Under the pieces are notes generated by a model. That model searched no databases. It saw only the letters and a program-made list of their open reading frames with translations, and was not told the origin of the DNA. From a virus: 23,834 nt of DNA. Shown piece by piece: positions 8,575-19,488 of the stretch. The stretch lies in IMG/VR virus record IMGVR_UViG_3300044974_000513, positions 1 to 23,834 of that record; one strand, given 5' to 3'. A program made the translations under genes and the position numbers. Positions within the stretch are counted from its first letter, which is position 1. The number at the start of each line of letters is the position of its first letter.

Positions 8575-9576
8575 TTAATTGTTTTTAAAATTTCTTTTTT
8601 CTTTTCTTGTTAGTTTCATAAAGGGTCTAACAAAATTAACCCACGCGTCATCAACTTTAGGTAGATATTTGAAAAACCCATCATCCATCATCATCTTAAT
8701 AAGGTTTCTATACCCCCTTCCATCAGGGTCTAAAGTTTCCTTATAATACAATTCAACAAGTTCCTTTCCTTCTTCGGTTATTAGAGGATTTGATAAATCA
8801 ACAATTTTTTTGTTAACCTCAAAAAACTCATCACCATATACTCCGGTTCTTGTTTTCCCTGATAATAGATTCTGTAATGTCTTGTTACTTCTATTTTCTT
8901 TTAGTAGGATTTCAGCCTTTTCTAAAATATCGGAAACAGAAACCGTTTTTTCAAGTAGCTCAGGAAAAAACTTTATAAGTGTTTTCTCACCAAGTCCGGA
9001 AATACCATCAATATTATCTGATTTATCACCCGATAAAATCTTATAGGTGCGAACATTTTGATGTGGGAAATAATAATATTCCAACATCACCTTGTCACCA
9101 TTTCGATAAGTTTGTTTTGTTTTTGGATAATACACCGACACTTTGTCCGAGATAAGTTGGATGAGGTCTTTATCCCCCGAGAAAATCGTTTTCTGTTCGT
9201 TCTCCGAGATTTGGCAGTAATATGCAATCAAATCATCCGCCTCATTTTTTTCGACGTTTATTTGTCTTATATAACACTCTTCCAAATACTCTTTAATCCT
9301 CTCTTTTTGTTCTTCAAAAGATTGGTCCTTAAAGTCATCTGTAACTCTACGTTTTTCTTTATATTGGGGATACAATGTTTTTCGGGTTAGGGAATTATCA
9401 TTCCCATCCCAAAACACAACTACTTTGTCGTAGTTTTCTTCGTCTATAAGTCTACGAAGGGTATTCACAAAGTGCCATACGGCACCTATGTGTTTACCTT
9501 TATTAAAAAAATCTTTAACCCCGTGGAATCCAATTTTTGTTAAATTGTTACCATCCACTAATAGTGTTTTAACCAC
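8575..9576 (-). CDS. rnh: RNase H / 5'-3' exonuclease (FEN-1 family, T4 Rnh-like)
   Basis: 333 residues, close to T4 RNase H (305). It would remove RNA primers and flaps from lagging-strand fragments. The PIN-like nuclease core shows the acidic metal ligands in order: D8 (LLVDGNNL), D57 (VFWDGNDN), E112/D114/D115 (NEADDLIAYY), D135/D137 (FSGDKDLI), and D184/D187 (ILSGDKSDNIDG). Residues about 180-203 (SGDKSDNIDGISGLGEKT) form the helix-three-turn-helix DNA-binding motif. A helical-arch segment (LYPQYKEKRR, 68-77) is rich in basic residues. The start is 22 bp after the UvsX stop (TAG) behind an A-rich leader, and the downstream 150-aa gene follows within 4 nt. Family call is secure; the precise preference (RNA versus DNA flap) cannot be read from sequence. 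Confidence 0.94.
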   Translation of the reverse strand: MVKTLLVDGNNLTKIGFHGVKDFFNKGKHIGAVWHFVNTLRRLIDEENYDKVVVFWDGNDNSLTRKTLYPQYKEKRRVTDDFKDQSFEEQKERIKEYLEECYIRQINVEKNEADDLIAYYCQISENEQKTIFSGDKDLIQLISDKVSVYYPKTKQTYRNGDKVMLEYYYFPHQNVRTYKILSGDKSDNIDGISGLGEKTLIKFFPELLEKTVSVSDILEKAEILLKENRSNKTLQNLLSGKTRTGVYGDEFFEVNKKIVDLSNPLITEEGKELVELYYKETLDPDGRGYRNLIKMMMDDGFFKYLPKVDDAWVNFVRPFMKLTRKEKRNFKNN

Positions 9577-9598
9577 TTTTTGTTTGTTTACGTTAGTA

Positions 9599-10597
9599 CT
9601 AGTCTTCGTCCTCTTCTTCTACTTTTGAAACAATATCTTTATAGACGATTTCTCCGTCACCTGATAATATTTGATTCCAAAATTCTGAATATTCTTTTTT
9701 GTATTTCTCTAAAGCCGATTTGTCGTCTTTAATATACCCTTGTGGTACCGCAATGATTTTACCATCCTTGAATGAAATACCATTAACGTGGTTTTTCAAT
9801 ACAGATATTTTAGTTCTTGTTGCGTAAGCTACCGTTCTTCCTCCTTTGGTTGCCGTAATGTGGTTAATACCCGCTTTTTTCTGATTACCGAACAAGAATA
9901 CTAAACTTGACGCTAACCATAATGCCTCGCCACCTTTTGCTTTAATCTCAGGTTGTCCAAACGGATTGTCCGGAAGGTCTACCCAAGGTTGATTGATAAC
10001 AACCAAAGTCGAATAATACGGAACACTTTCTTTTTTTGTTTTAGAGATTCTTGAGTGAATACCCATACCAATTGTGTCCGCAAGTGCCGCAGCATTGTGC
10101 ATTTTTCCACCCTTACCTTCGTAAGTCATCTTACACGGAATAGAACCAACAGAATCCCAACAGAATAAAATGTTATAAGGAATATCACCACTTTCTTGGG
10201 CATCCAATATATCATTCATATAGTCGGTTAATTGTTCAATATAATCAAAACTATCATTAAAGATAAAATGACCATCCCAATTACCATCCTCGTCTTGTTC
10301 TGCTTGTAATCCTAATTCAACCGCGTGTTTCCAACTCCATTTTTTCTCTGTGATAATTATAACCGGTAAATCACCCCTTCTTTGAGCGTCAGCCGCCGCT
10401 AAAATCATCGCAGTTGTTTTTGATGAGTTTGAATGCCCCAAAAACATATTGATTCCACCCATAATAGGTCCCGGTAAACCACAAGCCTCCATAAAAGCTT
10501 CACCACAATTATAATAACTCTCGTCTTTATATTTTGTTTTAGTAGAATACTTTCCTTTAATATCCTCCATTGAGAAGGTTTTCTTTTTTATCCCCAT
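9599..10597 (-). CDS. uvsX: UvsX-like recombinase (RecA/Rad51 family)
   Basis: 332 residues (T4 UvsX is 391). It would form filaments on ssDNA and catalyse strand exchange for recombination-dependent replication, aided by the gp32-like protein encoded just upstream. The RecA core shows Walker A GHSNSSKTT (54-62; the extra serines resemble the UvsX-type P-loop rather than RecA's), Walker B NILFCWDSV (142-150), a catalytic-loop region VVINQPW (199-205), and the L2-like KAKGGEALWLASS (219-231). The C-terminus is acidic (VEEEDED), as in RecA-type proteins where the tail tempers DNA binding. The start ATG is abutted by an 11-bp motif (AACTTGGACAT) that recurs through the 101-bp gap to gp32, so initiation may be regulated. 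There is no clear Shine-Dalgarno. A uvsW- or uvsY-like partner is not in the window. Confidence 0.93.
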   Translation of the reverse strand: MGIKKKTFSMEDIKGKYSTKTKYKDESYYNCGEAFMEACGLPGPIMGGINMFLGHSNSSKTTAMILAAADAQRRGDLPVIIITEKKWSWKHAVELGLQAEQDEDGNWDGHFIFNDSFDYIEQLTDYMNDILDAQESGDIPYNILFCWDSVGSIPCKMTYEGKGGKMHNAAALADTIGMGIHSRISKTKKESVPYYSTLVVINQPWVDLPDNPFGQPEIKAKGGEALWLASSLVFLFGNQKKAGINHITATKGGRTVAYATRTKISVLKNHVNGISFKDGKIIAVPQGYIKDDKSALEKYKKEYSEFWNQILSGDGEIVYKDIVSKVEEEDED

Positions 10598-10684
10598 ATG
10601 TCCAAGTTAATTGTTGTTTTTGTTAGTTTTTAATAGAACTAGGACATCGTGTCTTAGTTGATGTCCTAGTTAATTGTCCAAGTT
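10598..10684 (-). repeat. Array of five 11-bp motif copies between gp32 and uvsX
   Basis: The intergenic DNA carries five copies of WTGTCCWAGTT (written on the + strand): ATGTCCAAGTT at 10598-10608; an inverted ATGTCCTAGTT at 10637-10647; GTGTCTTAGTT at 10649-10659; ATGTCCTAGTT at 10661-10671; TTGTCCAAGTT at 10674-10684. The last four are spaced 12, 12 and 13 bp start to start. The first abuts the uvsX start codon. This is a strong candidate for an operator or RNA-binding site. No known consensus is recognised. Confidence 0.75.
10637..10671 (-). promoter_or_regulatory. Perfect 12-bp hairpin between gp32 and uvsX
   Basis: On the minus strand AACTAGGACATC (10660-10671) and GATGTCCTAGTT (10637-10648) are exact reverse complements around an 11-nt loop, AACTAAGACAC, which is itself a diverged copy of the arm. 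The RNA stem would be stable. No U-tract follows (CTATTAAAAAC), so it is not a standard terminator. Possible roles are an RNase processing site, an attenuator, or a protein-binding hairpin affecting uvsX. Confidence 0.7.
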
Positions 10685-10698
10685 AGTTTTTTTTTTGA

Positions 10699-11553
10699 TT
10701 AGAACGGCATATCATCATCCCCTTCATCGTCCGCTTGTGGGTCAACAGGTCCTGATGGTTTTGAACCACCAAATGAAATTTCATCTTCGTCTGAATTACC
10801 ATAATCGTAACCACCTTTGTCAGAATTCCATTTTGGAGTTTCACCTCTCGCAATTGCCTCTAAGTATTCAACCGGTTTTTTAGAATAAACATCCTCCCAA
10901 GTTAATTCATCGTTAATCCAAGAGTCCGCAAGTTCTTTATCCTCGTGAACAGGTGCCGCGTCATCATACATAACGGTTTGAATAACAGTGTAGTAAGCTC
11001 CTTTTGGAGTTTTTGCCTTAGTTAATTCTAAGATAAGGTCTCTACCTTTTTCAGGGTCAGCAATATCACCTTTGTTTCTGTAGATAGGTATGATTTTGTC
11101 ATAGATTCCCTCATTTTTGTAGTTAGATTTGAATCTCCAAAATTTAACACCATCTTCTTCGTTATCTCTATCGATAACCTTAACAATGTAGAATTTACGT
11201 GATAAGTAATTTGATGCCAATTTTTTATCAGCTTCTTTACCTGTTGAACGTAATTCTTCGTAAACCTCAGTTAAAGGTGAACGTTCGTTGTCGTTTTTTC
11301 CCGGGTCATAAAATTTTTGGAATTTTCCGTCTACTTGAATCTCGTGATACCAAACTTCTTTGAATGGTGAAGAACCATCTTTTGTTGGTAAGATTCTTAA
11401 TCTTTTTTGTCCTTGGGTTTCCTTATCAGTAAGGATTGCCGCAAAGTATTTTTTCATTCTTTCTTCTTGTGTAAATTTTGAGGTAGAAGAAGTACTACCT
11501 TGTTTTGCTTTCTCGTATTGAGCCAAAACTGCGTCTAATGAATTTGTCGCCAT
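10699..11553 (-). CDS. gp32: ssDNA-binding protein, T4 gp32-like, cysteine-free
   Basis: 284 residues (T4 gp32 is 301). It would coat ssDNA and organise replication and recombination proteins. Visible parts: a short N-terminal arm; a basic KRLRILP segment (50-56) resembling the region before the gp32 OB fold; a core with WYHEI (68-72), FWRFKSNYKNEGIYDKI (138-154) and DLILELTKAKT (172-182), aligning with the gp32 GKVFKYRF..KIWDKI and ANFVLKV blocks; then a linker. The C-terminus is acidic and ends DDDMPF, very like the bacterial SSB tip DDDIPF that recruits partner proteins. There is no cysteine in the whole protein, so the zinc-binding CxxC of T4 gp32 is absent; the aligned place reads ERSPLTEV. 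It is the first gene after a terminator and promoter pair and is followed by the motif array and uvsX. Confidence 0.88.
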   Translation of the reverse strand: MATNSLDAVLAQYEKAKQGSTSSTSKFTQEERMKKYFAAILTDKETQGQKRLRILPTKDGSSPFKEVWYHEIQVDGKFQKFYDPGKNDNERSPLTEVYEELRSTGKEADKKLASNYLSRKFYIVKVIDRDNEEDGVKFWRFKSNYKNEGIYDKIIPIYRNKGDIADPEKGRDLILELTKAKTPKGAYYTVIQTVMYDDAAPVHEDKELADSWINDELTWEDVYSKKPVEYLEAIARGETPKWNSDKGGYDYGNSDEDEISFGGSKPSGPVDPQADDEGDDDMPF

Positions 11554-11576
11554 AGTGTTTAAAATATTTAAAGGTT
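11554..11576 (-). promoter_or_regulatory. Short AU-rich leader of the gp32 gene, possible autoregulatory site
   Basis: If transcription starts about 7 bp after the TATACT box, the leader is only about 22 nt and reads ACCTTTAAATATTTTAAAC before the start. It has no G residue and no Shine-Dalgarno. T4 gp32 represses its own translation by binding an unstructured UUAAA-rich leader; the UUUAAA repeats here resemble that. This is inference from similarity of composition only. Confidence 0.3.
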
Positions 11577-11582
11577 TATAAA

Positions 11583-11611
11583 AGTATAAGTGTCAGCCGT
11601 GTGTTTGTCAA
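11583..11611 (-). promoter_or_regulatory. Sigma70-type promoter for the replication module
   Basis: Minus strand TTGACA (11606-11611), a 17-bp spacer (11589-11605), then TATACT (11583-11588). The -35 is perfect and the -10 has one mismatch from TATAAT, with optimal spacing, 29 bp upstream of the gp32 ATG. The same stretch also holds TTTG and TACTTTTA, partly fitting the Bacteroidota -33 TTTG / -7 TAnnTTTG pattern. It lies directly downstream of a terminator. Confidence 0.8.
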
Positions 11612-11621
11612 ATTGTTTTGT

Positions 11622-11645
11622 AAAAAAAACGGTCCGAAGACCGTT
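11622..11645 (-). terminator. UUCG-tetraloop intrinsic terminator after the 222-aa gene
   Basis: Minus strand AACGGTC (11639-11645), loop TTCG (11635-11638), GACCGTT (11628-11634), then a T-run continuing to 11622. A perfect 7-bp stem closed by the very stable UUCG loop and followed by eight T residues is a textbook terminator. It begins 4 bp after the stop of the 222-aa gene and ends the late tail transcript just before the gp32 promoter. Confidence 0.95.
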
Positions 11646-11649
11646 AAAA

Positions 11650-12318
11650 TTATCTTACTTGTCTAAATGGATTTACTTCGTCTTCAAAATTTCTGAAGGT
11701 TTTTTTAATCTCATTTGGTGAATAATCTTCAACTTCGTCTTGAGTTAAAACATATTCATTTTTTCCTGTTTTTTCCATATCTTCCTCTTTATCATCAAAA
11801 AATTGACTTAACTTTTGATTGAAAGGTCCTGAATCTAATGTTCTTAATTCTAATCTTTCTTGAGGAGTTTTTTCTCTGTATTTTTCAACCTTAGCTTCTA
11901 AATCATTTAATTTAGTCATGATACCATCCATCTCACCTAATTTAGTTTCTAAATTGTCTAAATGTTGGAATAAGTTATTAAAATACTCTTCTTGTTTCTC
12001 TTCAACTTTTTTCTGTGATTTCACTAAATCAGTAATATCCATTTCTTCCGTTTTTGATTCTGATTTTTCATCATCACCAATTTTTTCTACATCCGGGTCA
12101 TTTGCCACATCAACAGGTTGAGGTCCTGCAGGTGCTGCCGGTGCCGGAGCAACATTTGGGTCTGCCGGTGGAGCTAATCCCGCATCCGGTGCCGGAGCTG
12201 CGTTTGGGTCAACCTCACCAGGTGGTGGAGGTAATGTAGCATCTTGTTCAACAATATATTTATTGATAGAATTATATCTAGCGATTTCTTCTAAAATTTG
12301 ATTGTCTATTTTTTTCAT
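11650..12318 (-). CDS. Unknown 222-aa protein: Pro/Ala-rich linker plus coiled coil
   Basis: I do not recognise a family. Residues 1-25 are a probable helix (NQILEEIARYNSINKYIVE). Residues 28-75 are low-complexity Pro/Ala (PPPPGEVDPNAAPAPDAG and similar), including a twofold DPN.APAP repeat that reflects a DNA duplication. Residues 95-150 form a convincing coiled coil (LVKSQKKVEEKQEEYFNNL, then HLDNLETKLGEMDGIMTKL). The remainder is charged, ending NPFRQVR. There are no cysteines. This layout suits a structural adaptor or scaffold-like protein of the virion rather than an enzyme. It is the last gene of the tail module, 4 nt after the 74-aa gene, and is followed by a strong terminator, so a late structural or assembly role is inferred. 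The start is supported by the close upstream stop. Confidence 0.85.
   Translation of the reverse strand: MKKIDNQILEEIARYNSINKYIVEQDATLPPPPGEVDPNAAPAPDAGLAPPADPNVAPAPAAPAGPQPVDVANDPDVEKIGDDEKSESKTEEMDITDLVKSQKKVEEKQEEYFNNLFQHLDNLETKLGEMDGIMTKLNDLEAKVEKYREKTPQERLELRTLDSGPFNQKLSQFFDDKEEDMEKTGKNEYVLTQDEVEDYSPNEIKKTFRNFEDEVNPFRQVR
12141..12210 (-). repeat. In-frame 48-bp tandem duplication in the Pro/Ala-rich linker
   Basis: The segment beginning gtgccggagc and ending tttgggtc occurs at 12141-12162 and again at 12189-12210 with a few differences, 48 bp (16 codons) apart. It encodes the two DPN.APAP units of the 222-aa protein. Local GC is clearly above the surroundings because of Gly/Ala/Pro-type codons. 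It is a length-variable linker by nature. Confidence 0.7.
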
Positions 12319-12322
12319 GTTA

Positions 12323-12547
12323 TTAACCGTTTAATAGTTGTTTTACTCCTGTTAAGGTTTCAACTTGAATTTTTTTATTTTTATTTAATGTGTTATCAAC
12401 TCTTTCAATTAAACCATCTTTCATTCTGATAGTATAACAATCTCCAGTGTCTAAATCACATACTTGTTTAGAACCATCTCCCAAATCTTTTTCGGTACTT
12501 CTGGTATTTTTACCTAAATAGTTATCTAATATTAATTTTGTGTTCAT
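12323..12547 (-). CDS. Unknown 74-aa protein in the tail module
   Basis: A small acidic and basic mixed protein with no family I recognise. It has two cysteines close together (QVCDLDTGDCYTIRMKDG), a run of short turns and probable strands in the middle, and a lysine/threonine-rich C-terminus ending KQLLNG. No signal peptide or membrane segment. It starts 44 bp after the hub gene stop, preceded by a TATTTATAAATA element and an AAAAAGATT stretch, and its stop is 4 nt before the 222-aa gene start, so the two are likely co-translated. The clean spacing supports a real gene, but function is unknown. Confidence 0.75.
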   Translation of the reverse strand: MNTKLILDNYLGKNTRSTEKDLGDGSKQVCDLDTGDCYTIRMKDGLIERVDNTLNKNKKIQVETLTGVKQLLNG

Positions 12548-12591: not shown

Positions 12592-15500
12592 TTAACATTT
12601 TGTTCCGTTTCTAGAACATGGTTTTCCGTCCCATACAATTTCCGTTCCTGTATATGGTTTACTATAACATTCACAACAAATATTATCTTTAATAGCATCC
12701 CAATCATCAGCATCAATTATGTCACGATATTTAAATCCGTAGTCAGGACAATCTAATGGCATAATTACTTTAACAAACCCTTTATTAACAAATCTAATGT
12801 TTGGAAAAGCATCAACTATAACAATAAACACAATTTCATATGTTTTTGGGTTTCTAGCAAGTTCTAAAGCTTCAATTAAATTAGGAGAACTAATAAAAGA
12901 ACCTTTATTATCACCTTTCTTTATTGTAAAATTACTAATTAATATATCTGACATTTGACCACTAATGTATATTTTAGCATTAAAATCTTGCGTTAATAAC
13001 GCTCCTTCATTTAAAACAAAAAAATCACCACTTAAAGAACCACCAGCATTAATTTTTAGTCTTTGTAAATAATAAGTACTAAAAACAAAACTTTCTTCAA
13101 AAATACCTTGATTTGTTTGACCTTGTGGTGGAACATTAGGTGGCGGAGTACCACTTACATTTCCACTACCGGTTTTAAATAGGTTAATAGATTGTTGAAC
13201 ACTAGTTTCCATCTGACTTAATTGACTCGGATTATCTTGAACCAATTTGTTATATACATCAATATTTTTTTGATTTGCTGAGAAATATAATGTGTAAAAT
13301 TTAACAATCTCTTTTGCCGTTATTTCAGGTAACTGTGTTACCCTACCTTTCCATCTATCAATTAAAAATGAAATATGTTTAGATAAATCCGAAAAAATTG
13401 AATATGGTACATCAGTTGAACTACAATAATATTGTTGATTAAAATAATTAAGCCCCGGATTACCCCAATATTGTAATAAATTAATACCTGAATAGTTATT
13501 TTCTTTTGTTTCTAATTCAGTTCCATTTGACGAACCTAAATAAATTGCCGCAAAAACTAAATATCTTAATCTTTGGTCATCGGTTTGAGCAATAATTGTA
13601 CCAATAGCATCTTTATATTTAGATTTAGTTGTTGTTGGGGAATCAACGTTCCCATATTTTTCATAATTACTCACTGGTTTACATTGTGAAGAATTTTTTG
13701 AACTATTTGCGTCTTTCTTTGTAGCTTCTTTAACAGTATCATTAGTTTCACTAATAACATTATTCCCTTTTGTAGCACTTTCTTTTATCGCCTCTTGTTT
13801 GTCTTGTTTATTTTTTTCAATAATTGAAGTCAATAAATTAGTTTTTAAAGTTTGAATGTAACTATCTATTTCAGGTAAATTTGACACCGCTTGTCTGATT
13901 CCTTTAAACACAGTTTCAAATGTTCCCGGCCCAATACTATGATTAACTTCTTGAATCATATACGCCCCACTGAACATTGGTACGTGTCTCAAATTAAAAT
14001 ACATTGTTGGTTGAATCATGGCATTACCCATCATGGATACGGTACAAGCGTAACTTCTATTTTTATATAAATTATATAATGAAATATTTTGTGTACCCGC
14101 AACTTTACCTGAAGATTGTTTAACCAACTCATCAGTTTGTTGTAAAGATTCTGCAGTTGCTTGTCCCGCACTTTGGTCTATTTGGAATCCGTGGAAAATT
14201 GATTGACTTTGCGGTCCAACATCAACATTAAACCCAACAACTTTATTAGATTTATCCCAATCGGTTTTACCTATTTGGTCTTCAATTAATGGATTATCAC
14301 TAGCACGTCTTAAGTCAAAAGAATCCCCTTTAAATCTTACATTAGCATTGTTTTGAAAATCAGGTTGTTCACTTGGTTTACCCGCGTAAAAACACACCAT
14401 TTTTGCTGAAGAATTTCTATAATCAACATTTAAAAACGTCCCAAACATCGTGTTAGCAAAATCAAGAGACCCCTCTGGTTTTGGAACAGGATTTTTGACC
14501 GCATCTTGTACATTATAAAAGTTAACGTATGAAGGTATGTTCATAACAACAAAATTATTTTCAACTAAAATTGTTTGAACAAACGTCAACATACTTGTTT
14601 TAGGGTTTATATCTTTTAATCTAAATTTTAATTTATTAACATCAACCAATACTTTATCCCCAATGTTTCTGTTTGCCCTATCCATTAATAAAACATCTTC
14701 AAAAAGTGTTTTAGTTTTAAAGTCATTACCTGATATCCATTTATCGTTTAACGCTTTAAACGCCTCCCAATATTCTAATTTTGTTTGAGGACCTTCTAAT
14801 GCTGTCGCAAGTGCAGTATCAGGTGTACTACCAACATCCGGTAATTGTTTTTGTAATTTAGGCATTAATTTATTAATAATAATACTTTGGAATTTATCCG
14901 TACTTGCAATATAATCATTCATTAAATTAACAAACTTATTATAATTCAGAGTATCATCATTTAATTTTTGAGTCGCATAAATTTTAATAATAGGTGCGAA
15001 TGTTTTTATATTTTCAACACTAAAATCTATATTACAATCAACAAAAAAATCTGTAATGTATGAACCATTATTTGTATATTGTAATTGAGGTATCTCCGAA
15101 AAACCAACATATAATTGTAACGCTCTCCATTCATTTGGGTAATTTGTAATTGATTGTGATAATGTTACCGTACCTCCTGATGTTGGTAATGGAATTGGTG
15201 TTTGGAACGAATATTTACTCCAAGTATATGGGTCAGCAATTAAAGCATTTGAAAAAGTATAAAATAATCTTTTATCAAAGTTTGCCGGATTACCATATTT
15301 GAACACAACGTCATAATTTAAAAATGACTGTAAAATATTAGTTAAAACATTCAACTGCGAATCCGAAACTGCAGAAACTAATTCAGTATTAATGTTTGTC
15401 CCACCTACTTTTGGAATCTTCATTAAACTTCTCATCAACATTTGAAAATTTTTGAATGACTTTGTCGTTTCAGTATCAGTATTTGATATAAACTCATCAT

Positions 15501-18500
15501 CAAAATCATATATTGATTTTGAAAAATTTAAAAATTCAGTTTCAAAACTATCTAAAACTTCTGTCTCAAATACTGAAAATAATTCACTTATTTCAGTGTA
15601 TTGGTCTTGTTTGCCGTTAATTGAAAAATTCTCTTGTTTGTCATTACCCGTAATGTTGAATACTTGTTTTAAGTATTTTATTGGCGTTGGTTTAACAACT
15701 TTATCTATATCAAAATACCCATAGTTAGGTGCTGACCAAAACATTCTAACCGAACCGTTATACATTGCGGTATTACCGGTAATCTCATATTTTAGTTGAT
15801 TAGTTTCTTCAGTAATACATTCATTACTTGTTTGATTTATTAACGCACCTTGAGATGGGACAATAAATGATGAAGTTTGGTCCAATGTTGTGATATAAAC
15901 CGACCAAGGAATAACTCTTAAATCTCTTTTTGGGTTATTTGGGTCAAAACCTTCAGGCATATTAATTATTGCTTCAGGCACATAATTTAATGTAACTCCT
16001 GAAGTAAACCCATTTTGAATATCTGTATCGGTGTAACCTGAATATATTTGGAAACCTTGATAAAATACATTAAAATCATTAATTAATAATGGGTAAAAAC
16101 CTGTATTAATTAATGAAGATGTTTCGGCACCTAATGTTGTATTTTTTTCTAACACAATATCCATTTGAGCACCATTAATTATCAAATTATAGTTTTTTGT
16201 TGGCGAATTTGTTACCGGGTCATAGTTACGTACATAACTAAATCCTGACCACGATGTATCCAAAATATCTTGACCTGTTTCTACAAAATTTTTATATCTA
16301 TTCCAAACAGAACCAATTTTCAATATCCAAGGATATGGTAATTTATGAACCGCACCAAATTTTTTAAGTGTTGCAAAAATGTAATCTAAATCCGTAACAG
16401 AATTTGATTCATATGTTTTATATTTTTCTCTTAAGGTAGATAATGGTAAACTATTTAAAAACAAATATGCTGAAGCAACAAATGGATATTCATCGTTATT
16501 TCTAAAATTCTTAACACCTTCCTGAATTGAATTAATAAAATATGGAGTGTTGAACATTGAAACAGTTTGGTTACTAGTAACCAAACCTGAATAATCATTA
16601 TACCTTAAATTACCCTCTGTCGGTAATTGTTTATCAAAACTTCTATTTTCATAAAATGATTTTAAATCAAAGAAATAAATTGGTGATTTAATTTCATTAA
16701 ATAAAAAATTAGTGAATGGTCTTCTATCATTATTATTAGTTATATCTAAAAAATTAGATATAATTTTTTTATTAGTATTATACGTTAATACTTTTGTTGT
16801 GTTATATGATGATTTGATATCCGAAATCGAATTCCCATTGGCTAATTCATTTTTAACCCAAGTAAAATTTGTAAATGGGTACGTATCAGTTAAATTAAAA
16901 ATATTACTTGAGGTTGAATTTGATATAAAATTAACAACATTATTTTCACCCGGTAGGGAAACTAATGGTTGAGATTGATTTTCATTCAACAAGTTTTGGC
17001 TTAAAAATTCATAACTAGAATTATTAACTTTATTCTTAATGTAAGAAGTGTTGAAAATACCTCTTATAAAATTTTGCCAACTTTCACCTGTACCATCATT
17101 AGATATATGTCTCATTAATATCTCAAAATTACCAGCATTAATTCCAAACTCTTTTAATTTTTTAATAATAAAAGGGTTATCGTTAGATAAACTTTGAATA
17201 ATATTAATACTTTCTGCCTCAGCAATTACATCCGTTACTTTATCTTGGTCTTGAGTATTACCATTACTTCTTAATAAACCTGAATAATTTGATGTTAAAA
17301 ATATTCTTTCAAATATTTCATAAAAATATTTAATCTCTTCCTTGTTATCATAAACAGCATTACTAATTGGAAATTCAATAGCATCCAATGATACTCGTTG
17401 AATATCCGTTAACGGATTTTCAGTTGTTAACGGGTCTGCAGGTGGTTTTACCGTTTGAGTTGTCGCTCTAATAAATTCTTCCACAAATTCTACTTCAGGC
17501 CATAAATCTGTTTGATAGGCCTTCGTTTGATTTATAACATTTTTATCACCCGGATAAGTTAATTCAAACATTTCACGTCCATCCTTACCTGATGTCGCAA
17601 CTAACATTTGTGGCCACGGGTATATTGGTAATGTTTCATTATCTCCTGACGATACGTTATCCACACAAGCAGTTGCGGTTTCAGGATTTAAAATAGAATT
17701 CCTTCTAGCTTTAATTTGCGTATCATTTAAATTCCAAGCTTGAACGTGAACATCGTCCATCAATCTTAAAAATGCCTCTCCGTTTGCAAATATAACCGCA
17801 AGAACATTTCGGATATTTGGAACAAACCCAATACCGTTATCTTTCTTTTGTAATAAATTAGTTAAAGCCTCCGTTAATTCTTCTTGAATATTTTCTTTAA
17901 CGGATTTAACTAATTTACCCATTTGATTTATTAAATCCTCAAATCTACCAGTACCTTCAAATATATAAAATTGAAAATTCTTTTCTTCAGAACCTTTAGT
18001 ATTGGTTATCGTTAATGAATTAAAAATACCTTCAGTCGCTAATTGATTTTTAAACTCTTGAAGTTGTAATGGTGTAGGCTGTGTTGATAGTTTTTTTCTT
18101 TGTCTATAAGTTTCGTCAATATTAACATCAGATTCTTTCAAATCAATAGGGAATATATTTGGGGTAATCTTGAACGGTACTTTTGAATTTGTGTTCGTTT
18201 TACCATCAATAGTATACTTACCATCCACACCACAAACAGTATTTGATTCCATTTTTTCTTTTGCATCACTAATAATACTTTGTAGTTCCGCTAAAGCATT
18301 TTTTCTTTTTTGTGATGTATTAATTTCAGATTTAAACGTATAAACTTTACTACCCTCAGTAAGACCATTAACCCCTTTCATAACCAAATAATTCTCAGTA
18401 TCCATATATTTAGAAAACCAAGAAGTTCCCGCACCAACATAAACATCTTTATCCAAATTACCTAATAATCGTTGATACTCCTCAACGTAAGTTAATGGGT

Positions 18501-19488
18501 CTAAATTTTGTTGTGAAAATGATGTTAAAATGTTTTTAATAAAATTCTCAATTCTATCTCTCATTTGTACAACAGTTATTTCAGGAAAATCATCAGGTAT
18601 CATCCCTTTTGATTTATACTCACTATATAACTCTCTAACTTTTTGATAACCTCTCGAAACTATTGAATCCTGTACATTTGAAAAGTTGGTAGCCCCACCT
18701 TTAGTCGTTTGTATATTAACTCTAGATTGATACATATGAGGGACTGCCGTTAACGCAGCCATAGGCACTTCACTTAATAGTGTGTATTTGTATGTGTAAA
18801 AATGTAGTTTTATTTTAAAATTACCATTAGATGTATCATATCTTGATGAAAACGTTTGTAACATTAATTGTAATTTAACAGCTTTACCATAAAATCCTTT
18901 TATTGTTAATTGGAACATTGGATATGGTAAATTAAAAAATGCCGCGTATGGTGAATTATCACCCGCCTCAAACATCGCTCTACCTTTAACATCTTCTAAT
19001 TCAATCGTAATTGAAGGTAGAAAATCTAATCCTTGTCTAATATTAATAGAGGTAATACCTAATAATCCATTATCAACAGACGCTTGTTTACCACCTGAAT
19101 TAATTGTTTGTCTTATATAAAAATCACTACTCTTATTTGGATTTGAAACAGAGGTTAGTTTTGGCTGATTCACACCATTACCGGTAATTGTATCTTTACC
19201 TGTTATTTCATCAGTATATGAATTATCTAAAAATGTTTTATCACCCGGTTTTAAAAAATTAATACTGGCAATTGAAACTGTTTGTACTTGGTCGTTATTC
19301 GCAACACCAAGTGCTAATTTAGTTCGTGGCAATACTTTACACTCTAAATTAGCATACATCACTAAATTTTCTTGTTTCACATATCTTTCTTGTACTTTTC
19401 CGTCACTGTCTATGACTTTATTTGGGTCTATGATTGATATGTTATTATAATCAAACTCAACTAATATATTTTCCGATTTATCTACCAT
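12592..19488 (-). CDS. Giant baseplate-hub-like tail protein (2298 aa)
   Basis: 2298 residues, far larger than T4 gp27 (391) or gp5 (575). Residues about 120-255 (GLLGITSINIRQGLDFLPSI, LPYPMFQLTIKGFYGKAVKL, then a long beta-rich run) and about 1740-1865 (VVGFNVDVGPQSQSIF; SYACTVSMMGNAMIQPTMYF; GAYMIQEVNHSIGPGTFETV) resemble the parts of a gp27/gpD-type hub barrel. They are separated by roughly 1,500 residues of mostly unrecognised sequence. Residues about 1950-2070 hold a helical, lysozyme- or glucosaminidase-like segment (ETKENNYSGINLLQYWG). A PPPNVPPQGQ linker near 2115 leads to a beta-rich C-terminal domain ending in a cysteine cluster (NICCECYSK; CSRNGTKC). It overlaps the 108-aa LysM gene by 11 nt, implying coupled translation. 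Tail/baseplate assignment is good; the hub role is inferred from short motifs. Confidence 0.85.
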   Translation of the reverse strand: MVDKSENILVEFDYNNISIIDPNKVIDSDGKVQERYVKQENLVMYANLECKVLPRTKLALGVANNDQVQTVSIASINFLKPGDKTFLDNSYTDEITGKDTITGNGVNQPKLTSVSNPNKSSDFYIRQTINSGGKQASVDNGLLGITSINIRQGLDFLPSITIELEDVKGRAMFEAGDNSPYAAFFNLPYPMFQLTIKGFYGKAVKLQLMLQTFSSRYDTSNGNFKIKLHFYTYKYTLLSEVPMAALTAVPHMYQSRVNIQTTKGGATNFSNVQDSIVSRGYQKVRELYSEYKSKGMIPDDFPEITVVQMRDRIENFIKNILTSFSQQNLDPLTYVEEYQRLLGNLDKDVYVGAGTSWFSKYMDTENYLVMKGVNGLTEGSKVYTFKSEINTSQKRKNALAELQSIISDAKEKMESNTVCGVDGKYTIDGKTNTNSKVPFKITPNIFPIDLKESDVNIDETYRQRKKLSTQPTPLQLQEFKNQLATEGIFNSLTITNTKGSEEKNFQFYIFEGTGRFEDLINQMGKLVKSVKENIQEELTEALTNLLQKKDNGIGFVPNIRNVLAVIFANGEAFLRLMDDVHVQAWNLNDTQIKARRNSILNPETATACVDNVSSGDNETLPIYPWPQMLVATSGKDGREMFELTYPGDKNVINQTKAYQTDLWPEVEFVEEFIRATTQTVKPPADPLTTENPLTDIQRVSLDAIEFPISNAVYDNKEEIKYFYEIFERIFLTSNYSGLLRSNGNTQDQDKVTDVIAEAESINIIQSLSNDNPFIIKKLKEFGINAGNFEILMRHISNDGTGESWQNFIRGIFNTSYIKNKVNNSSYEFLSQNLLNENQSQPLVSLPGENNVVNFISNSTSSNIFNLTDTYPFTNFTWVKNELANGNSISDIKSSYNTTKVLTYNTNKKIISNFLDITNNNDRRPFTNFLFNEIKSPIYFFDLKSFYENRSFDKQLPTEGNLRYNDYSGLVTSNQTVSMFNTPYFINSIQEGVKNFRNNDEYPFVASAYLFLNSLPLSTLREKYKTYESNSVTDLDYIFATLKKFGAVHKLPYPWILKIGSVWNRYKNFVETGQDILDTSWSGFSYVRNYDPVTNSPTKNYNLIINGAQMDIVLEKNTTLGAETSSLINTGFYPLLINDFNVFYQGFQIYSGYTDTDIQNGFTSGVTLNYVPEAIINMPEGFDPNNPKRDLRVIPWSVYITTLDQTSSFIVPSQGALINQTSNECITEETNQLKYEITGNTAMYNGSVRMFWSAPNYGYFDIDKVVKPTPIKYLKQVFNITGNDKQENFSINGKQDQYTEISELFSVFETEVLDSFETEFLNFSKSIYDFDDEFISNTDTETTKSFKNFQMLMRSLMKIPKVGGTNINTELVSAVSDSQLNVLTNILQSFLNYDVVFKYGNPANFDKRLFYTFSNALIADPYTWSKYSFQTPIPLPTSGGTVTLSQSITNYPNEWRALQLYVGFSEIPQLQYTNNGSYITDFFVDCNIDFSVENIKTFAPIIKIYATQKLNDDTLNYNKFVNLMNDYIASTDKFQSIIINKLMPKLQKQLPDVGSTPDTALATALEGPQTKLEYWEAFKALNDKWISGNDFKTKTLFEDVLLMDRANRNIGDKVLVDVNKLKFRLKDINPKTSMLTFVQTILVENNFVVMNIPSYVNFYNVQDAVKNPVPKPEGSLDFANTMFGTFLNVDYRNSSAKMVCFYAGKPSEQPDFQNNANVRFKGDSFDLRRASDNPLIEDQIGKTDWDKSNKVVGFNVDVGPQSQSIFHGFQIDQSAGQATAESLQQTDELVKQSSGKVAGTQNISLYNLYKNRSYACTVSMMGNAMIQPTMYFNLRHVPMFSGAYMIQEVNHSIGPGTFETVFKGIRQAVSNLPEIDSYIQTLKTNLLTSIIEKNKQDKQEAIKESATKGNNVISETNDTVKEATKKDANSSKNSSQCKPVSNYEKYGNVDSPTTTKSKYKDAIGTIIAQTDDQRLRYLVFAAIYLGSSNGTELETKENNYSGINLLQYWGNPGLNYFNQQYYCSSTDVPYSIFSDLSKHISFLIDRWKGRVTQLPEITAKEIVKFYTLYFSANQKNIDVYNKLVQDNPSQLSQMETSVQQSINLFKTGSGNVSGTPPPNVPPQGQTNQGIFEESFVFSTYYLQRLKINAGGSLSGDFFVLNEGALLTQDFNAKIYISGQMSDILISNFTIKKGDNKGSFISSPNLIEALELARNPKTYEIVFIVIVDAFPNIRFVNKGFVKVIMPLDCPDYGFKYRDIIDADDWDAIKDNICCECYSKPYTGTEIVWDGKPCSRNGTKC

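Follow-up and report, generated by a model that had tools for sequence, protein, structure and literature searches.

The phage single-stranded DNA-binding protein gp32 and the recombinase UvsX cooperate when phage replication depends on recombination, so the ratio of the two is expected to be important. In CsrA-type regulation, a motif in a hairpin loop is combined with a copy over the ribosome-binding site. The PeSLs of phage T4 carry an early promoter and are present in many copies per genome; they are said to have been described by Arbiol et al. in 2010 (a paper cited in PMC4177764) as mobile regulatory cassettes, short stem-loop spacers where neighboring genes shuffle. In T4, gp32 and gp43 bind structured leaders together with sequence over the ribosome-binding site (PMC3014915, PMC535899); the gp32 operator includes an RNA pseudoknot as nucleation site. 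The T4 gene 32 transcript has an unusual stability, and RNase E cleaves it close to the stop codon (PMC3014915). PMC2864571 describes STAXI RNAs, which lie near ssb genes and contain tandem pseudoknots, and the L17 downstream element, a structured RNA located after the gene that it may control.

The element considered here occupies the spacer between a gp32-type gene and a UvsX-like recombinase gene in viral DNA (IMG/VR record IMGVR_UViG_3300044974_000513, positions 1 to 23,834; this whole stretch of 23,834 nt is the window). It is a version of known kinds of element, namely terminator or attenuator hairpins and phage translational operators, and constitutes no new category. Its layout of a loop copy and a start copy recalls CsrA regulation, but the motif is CAURGACA here and GGA in the CsrA consensus. 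Like the PeSLs, it is a short stem-loop regulatory spacer at a point of gene shuffling; unlike them, it had a single occurrence in each of 10 focal-type records examined (the type is defined below), and no promoter was recognized within it. Structured RNA tens of nucleotides before a start codon, together with ribosome-binding-site sequence, is shared with the T4 gene 32 and 43 operators (PMC3014915, PMC535899), and the gene 32 operator also has an unstructured A+U-rich stretch between structure and start. Those operators control the repressor's own gene from its leader, whereas the present element follows gp32 and precedes another gene. Proximity to an ssb gene is common to STAXI, and a position downstream of a gene to the L17 element (PMC2864571); STAXI differs in its tandem pseudoknots, and the present element reached no Rfam family threshold. 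At the gathering threshold, Rfam gave no match in 57,252 bases (the window plus six loci), and the best spacer match at the weak level had E 0.04 and 22.2 bits against a threshold of 41.2. The element was not reported in the papers within reach of a literature search, which extended to few subscription papers.

Layout and transcriptional setting of the spacer

Both genes lie on the minus strand with 101 bp between them (Table 1). They had been named as gp32 and uvsX from the sequence, and Pfam (for gp32) and PHROG matches support these calls; the Pfam RecA match of the window's uvsX (E 0.0005) stays below the RecA curated cut-off.

Table 1. Features of the gp32-uvsX region, in window coordinates and in the order of transcription
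Feature	Position	Strand	Basis
UUCG-loop hairpin resembling a terminator, ahead of the gp32 promoter-like site	11628..11645	(-)	terminator listing; relatives
Promoter-like site upstream of gp32, TTGACA-17-TATACT	11583..11611	(-)	conserved in relatives
gp32-type single-stranded DNA-binding protein gene (upstream)	10699..11553	(-)	Pfam gp32 E 8.7e-13; PHROG ssDNA-binding protein
Motif copy 1 (sense AACTTGGACAA), flanking the hairpin on its 5' side	10674..10684	(-)	motif search; alignment
Hairpin 5' arm AACTAGGACATC, including motif copy 2 AACTAGGACAT	10660..10671	(-)	motif search; fold; covariation
11-nt loop with diverged copy 3 AACTAAGACAC	10649..10659	(-)	motif and inverted-repeat search
Hairpin 3' arm GATGTCCTAGTT, complement of the motif	10637..10648	(-)	inverted-repeat search
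A-rich linker from hairpin to start copy, mostly unpaired in the predicted fold	10609..10636	(-)	sequence; fold
Start-codon motif copy AACTTGGACAT, adjoining the ATG	10598..10608	(-)	sequence; start copies in relatives
UvsX-like recombinase gene (downstream)	9599..10597	(-)	PHROG UvsX-like recombinase E 1e-16

The original prediction described five copies of WTGTCCWAGTT in 87 bp. The cluster is real, with four exact copies, at 10598-10608 (+), 10637-10647 (-), 10661-10671 (+) and 10674-10684 (+), and a fifth at 10649-10659 (+) that has two mismatches and had rightly been called diverged. A search of the whole 23.8-kb window placed all of its exact copies within that single 87-bp stretch. The steps from 10637 to 10649, 10661 and 10674 are 12, 12 and 13 bp, which confirms the proposed phasing, and the perfect 12-bp inverted repeat (10637-10648 and 10660-10671) with its 11-nt loop, as well as the copy abutting the uvsX start codon, were recovered as described. 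In 300 dinucleotide shuffles of the window, exact copies averaged 0.12 (maximum 2) and never exceeded one within 81 bp, against four observed, so that the density is indeed beyond chance. Matches with up to two mismatches show no excess over the whole window (28 against 36.8 in shuffles), and the unusual part is thus the clustering of exact copies. Copy 1 is the counterpart of the 5' arm of an outer (second) helix found in most of the focal clade, and its 3' partner is absent in the window. As RNA, the spacer folds with z = -3.25, and one of 200 shuffles was equally stable. The T4-type gp32 operator has an unstructured stretch with UUAA(A) that runs up to the start codon. The A-rich linker here contains AAAUUAAAUUAA in the focal consensus and UUAAAA and UUAAC in the window, letters that local A/U-richness may also account for. 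On the strand opposite the genes, a run of ten T residues (10687-10696, +) differs in length among relatives.

The coding strand directly after the window hairpin reads CUAUUAAAAA, so a proper U-tract is absent, as had been noted. Of the features of an intrinsic terminator, the window therefore has the stable transcript hairpin, according to prediction and covariation, and lacks the U-tract after the 3' arm; for a lenient count to reach 5 U in 8, it has to begin within the stem or at its last bases. The terminator listing excluded this hairpin because of its loop limit of 8.

Positions 9000-12400 of the window gave no blastn match among INPHARED phages. By protein, the nearest isolates are the Flavobacterium phages 'immuto' (UvsX 36.9% identical), in which ssb and recombinase genes are 2 nt apart with no spacer. 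A gp32 scan of GTDB found no relative and hence no host, which is probably a member of the Bacteroidetes. Across the best 61 upstream sequences by gp32 identity, the promoter-like site takes the form TTTGAC...TTATACTTTT and resembles the Bacteroidetes -33/-7 promoter consensus TTTG/TANNTTTG given in PMC6847099. Since this conserved site stands behind a terminator-like hairpin, gp32 is probably its own transcription unit with the spacer hairpin at its end. In the same region (11583-11645, -), CGGCTGACACTTATACTT is near-invariant in close relatives, which exceeds the apparent need of a promoter alone. Further along this strand (12592-19488, -), the window encodes a protein of 2298 aa with no Pfam match at E 0.001.

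Relatives of the spacer and conservation of the hairpin as RNA

IMG/VR was scanned four times by uvsX, once by gp32 and once by pattern, yielding at least 506 loci, many overlapping on the same contigs and with the window pooled in. Both genes were present in at least 432 oriented entries, adjacent in 293 (118 distinct spacers) and non-adjacent in 139. Among the matches listed, a hairpin of -6 kcal/mol or lower follows gp32 in 117 of the 118 distinct adjacent spacers and in all 65 distinct non-adjacent regions whose gp32 match extends to the C-terminus, a criterion loose enough for L451 and L454 to pass with weak unrelated folds running into the next ORF. A U-tract was scored, again among the matches listed, in 58 of 117 adjacent and 55 of 65 non-adjacent cases, by a lenient count that includes L318, L473 and the spacer of the window itself and overlooks some real terminators because their hairpin was drawn too long. 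Of the 59 adjacent spacers lacking a U-tract, visual inspection assigned 46 to the focal type.

Spacers of the focal type comprise an outer 5' copy, an inner 12-bp stem, an outer 3' arm UUGUCUAA, an A-rich linker and a start copy, with no proper U-tract. The resulting two-helix form, a 12-bp helix followed by an asymmetric internal loop and a helix of 6-7 bp, is seen in most members of the clade; the second helix is missing from the window and L248. Motif-bearing terminators have a stem CWWRGACAC...GUGUCYWWG and a U-tract, often a loop copy, and in many cases a start copy, which is lacking in L046, L287, L299 and L488 (group III hairpins). Other terminators have unrelated stems, such as GGTAGTGA...TCACTACC followed by T7, and no start copy. 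The intrinsic terminators of relatives resemble the element in their place directly after gp32, and the stem CWWRGACAC recurs in several of them; a proper U-tract is what the focal clade and the window lack by comparison, and most of the clade differs further in having the second helix. Because plain terminators occupy the equivalent position in many relatives outside the focal clade, the element is probably a modified terminator, and on sequence comparison the hairpin seems to be descended from a transcription stop signal. The earlier view that simple termination is unlikely suits the window's clade, whereas plain terminators stand at the same place in many relatives.

Comparison of the window with 47 relatives (48 spacers; 19 pairs in two helices) gives good support to the hairpin as an evolutionarily maintained RNA structure. 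Paired combinations fill 97.6% of the cells, and two-sided changes affect seven pairs and 36 cells, where shuffles gave 7.1 cells and slid controls no more than 9. All seven of these pairs belong to the inner helix. Pairing in the outer helix stands at 97%, with one-sided changes only, its 3' side being absent in the window; focal grouping used the pattern of the outer 3' arm, so that the invariance of this arm comes partly from selection of rows, and the 47- and 48-row sets add five rows that do not match it. Alignment A1 has the window row off by two bases at each end, and the helix search took in nested helices. In the 47 relatives, helix cells hold 91 G-U and no A-C combinations, with 16 otherwise unpaired. 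A stem that stays paired through two-sided changes and tolerates G-U without A-C indicates selection on the coding-strand RNA and not on a DNA operator. The compensatory changes called for in the original prediction are thus present, and the motif recurs upstream of uvsX in relatives; neither of the outcomes that it had named as refuting, lack of motif and hairpin in relatives or uncompensated stem changes, arose. Its operator reading on DNA is disfavored by the same stem changes and G-U over A-C asymmetry, which favor its alternatives on the mRNA, a protein-binding site or an RNA switch. A switch by base pairing of the 3' arm with the start copy shows no covariation. As a whole, the earlier interpretation is partly supported. 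An antisense (bidirectional) terminator was also considered and rejected: the plus-strand T10 (10687-10696) starts 15 nt beyond the hairpin and varies in length, and the G-U asymmetry indicates the other strand.

A covariance model built from 38 focal rows was run on 15 chosen records, 10 focal-type and 5 of other types, with 150 first-look candidates scored in records above 100 kb. Every focal-type record (47-322 kb) gave one strong match, located at the gp32-uvsX spacer (10/10, E 1.5e-16 or better), and next-best matches in these records were at E 0.056 or weaker, several of them being the opposite strand of the same place. The five other-type records reached only E 0.16 at best. The window itself scores 44.3 bits (E 1.3e-6). 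A genome-wide regulon, for which the earlier proposal to look for the motif elsewhere in related genomes was followed, was rejected: there is no excess outside the spacer, with 57 matches against 100 for the backward control in nine records of at least 56 kb, and in another search 2 of 21 motif matches fell outside the gp32-uvsX spacer.

Motif copies at the downstream start and allele exchange at the spacer

Among the matches listed, strict WTRGACA occurs at the next start in 56 of 173 regions with usable gp32, and 55 of these 56 have a motif-bearing hairpin. Regions without such a hairpin show a start copy in 1 of 86, namely L030, whose hairpin is a degenerate form. Conversely, a strict start copy is missing from 32 of the 87 regions scored as motif-bearing; roughly half of the 32 show degenerate versions such as UAUACA and the others none. 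In this scoring, L228, L237 and L265 count as motif-bearing through unrelated hairpins, and the next start of L504 was mispicked inside its hairpin. Mapped on the gp32 tree, there are 21 changes in the hairpin motif and 26 in the start copy. Across 14 independent tree pairs differing in the hairpin motif, the start copy differs in the same direction in 6.8, in the opposite direction in 0.3 and not at all in 6.9 (p between 0.004 and 0.22, median 0.031). Starting instead from pairs that differ in the start copy gives a weaker result (median p 0.0625). The whole element spans only some 100 bp and is passed on as a unit, so that the association of hairpin and start copy may reflect joint inheritance.

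Next to the ATG, the start copy is still present in lineages whose gp32 is as little as 55% identical to that of the window, and with both uvsX classes; it also covers the start of a different downstream ORF in L048, L285, L125, L180, L183 and L030; L311, from the same group, has no motif over its start. A small protein of about 70-75 aa fills the gap between gp32 and uvsX in L048, L285, L478 and L112, that of L285 belonging to PHROG 1811, a family of unknown function. Among the matches listed, 39 rows were scored as hairpin plus U-tract, a set of related rows to which the spacer of the window and some other hairpins, focal-type or unrelated, also belong; the loop copy is found in 19, the start copy in 27 and both in 17. 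CAURGACA stands in the loop of 12 of the 39, and a random 13-mer of assumed composition has a 2.5% chance of a loop match. Stems in this set mostly read TTGG, ATGG, TAGG or ATAG, with matching 3' arms. The commonest form of the copies is CATAGACA (9 of 19 loops and 17 of 27 starts), including where the stem reads differently, which suggests that loop and start copies are maintained as sequence and not merely copied from an arm. Within the focal clade, loop copies are rare.

Patterns of identity along the locus indicate that gp32 and uvsX alleles are exchanged at the spacer. Junctions were examined in six pairs. In the window versus L318 and in L440 versus L416, gp32 is about 70% identical and near-full identity then runs from the first motif copy into uvsX, while in L417 versus L428 gp32 and spacer are alike and uvsX falls to about 65% after the first codons. 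Two uvsX allele classes, with about 64% DNA identity, alternate on closely related gp32 backgrounds (L417 and L428, for example). When each of 28 class-B rows was paired with its nearest class-A row by gp32, 25 pairs had gp32 identity of at least 85%; mean identities in these were 93.6% for gp32, 85.5% for the spacer and 63.9% for uvsX, and the spacer exceeded uvsX in 24 of the 25. The best gp32 tree (54 rows) has 14 changes of uvsX class, of which at least 5 are forced by supported branches. The locus offers a clear case of a short regulatory spacer at the joint of neighboring-gene allele exchange. An endonuclease-like ORF lies between gp32 and uvsX in L451 and L454 (PHROG 2340 at E 1e-10 and no Pfam match for L451); both motif hairpin and start copy are absent from these two loci, though their uvsX is 98% and 94% identical to that of the window.

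Candidate mechanisms

The reading with a roughly even prospect of being right has two parts: a hairpin derived from a terminator that serves as attenuator or mRNA end, and an operator-like motif that covers the start codon of the following gene. The element would act in cis, as RNA closing the gp32 transcription unit. Given a promoter belonging to gp32, the hairpin would end, pause or protect the gp32 mRNA, leaving less uvsX, and the element may in this way limit the amount of uvsX made. With its U-tract gone, the focal clade would rely on partial read-through, or on processing with 3'-end protection, instead of full termination. Single-stranded CAURGACA near the hairpin (in the loop or 5' flank) and over the downstream start would form a putative translational operator, on which a phage or host RNA-binding protein, gp32 being a candidate, would adjust translation of the next gene as well. 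This operator part is proposed because the start copy accompanies motif hairpins and the loop resembles the start copy. If gp32 were the protein that binds the motif, a simple testable link between single-stranded DNA-binding protein and recombinase would follow. T4 controls gp32 through a leader operator, while this group has an apparently terminator-derived element on the 3' side with a motif at the neighbor's start. A bolder version is decidedly unlikely: a portable cassette whose loop or flank displays the motif of the next start, so that one RNA-binding protein, perhaps gp32, would link how the gp32 mRNA ends with how the following gene is translated, the same cassette being the joint for allele exchange.

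It is possible, though rather unlikely, that only the hairpin matters, as a terminator remnant or attenuator, and that the extra copies are functionless by-products of duplication or slippage around the inverted repeat. Tandem unit duplications do occur (a doubled unit in L061 and a 13-nt step in most focal rows), copy-less hairpins stand at the same place in many relatives, and the copies are degenerate in parts of the clade. Against by-products speak the persistence of the start copy by the ATG across gp32 divergence and both uvsX classes, and CATAGACA in loop and start of several lineages with other stem sequences. An unlikely alternative for the hairpin itself is that the irregular two-helix structure is cut by an RNase III-like RNase or blocks 3' exonucleases, which would leave the gp32 mRNA stable and put uvsX on an mRNA of its own. 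Its intercistronic position, its asymmetric internal loop between helices of 12 and 6-7 bp and the missing U-tract fit this idea, as do the stability and RNase E cut of T4 gene 32 mRNA (PMC3014915); the window and L248, however, do without the second helix. The structure may be compared with T7 RNase III sites, a comparison on which the literature search gave nothing direct.

Retention of the spacer as short shared homology, or as the neighborhood of a homing endonuclease, for gp32/uvsX allele exchange is improbable as its explanation and compatible with the others. The identity jumps in the three pairs named, the 25 of 28 cross-class pairs with similar gp32 and divergent uvsX, and the endonuclease-like ORF in L451 and L454 agree with it, but exchange accounts for the positions of breakpoints and not for two-sided stem changes, the class changes forced by supported branches number at least 5 against 14 on the best tree, and the junctions come from six pairs. 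Quite improbable is an RNA switch in which the 3' arm pairs with the 5' copy or the start copy and hides the uvsX start, for instance while the 5' copy is occupied by ribosomes that are completing gp32. Between the start copy and the outer 3' arm, 94% of pair cells allow pairing, which is no excess over shuffles (94.2%), and the alternative partners show no two-sided change. When the first 18 nt were blocked in silico, the mean pairing between hairpin and start region went up from 0.13 to 0.29 in 42 focal rows and from 0.12 to 0.16 in 50 others. This pairing reaches 0.3 in 22 of the 42, but the other 20, including those with UAUACA starts, form it little, and the window's own spacer (row L409) drops from 0.31 to 0.21. 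Sequestration of the start codon by pairing is accordingly unsupported, having no covariation and, by prediction, forming in roughly half of the focal rows. The 12-13-bp phasing and inverted copies would suit an operator on DNA, or an array of replication iterons, to which a phage protein binds, a very improbable reading because the stem changes break the motif yet keep RNA pairing, the 91 G-U against 0 A-C imply selection on one RNA strand, and the motif is not in excess elsewhere in long records.

Relatives bearing the element include contigs of jumbo-phage size, at 322 kb (L477), 309 kb (L435) and 272 kb (L462).
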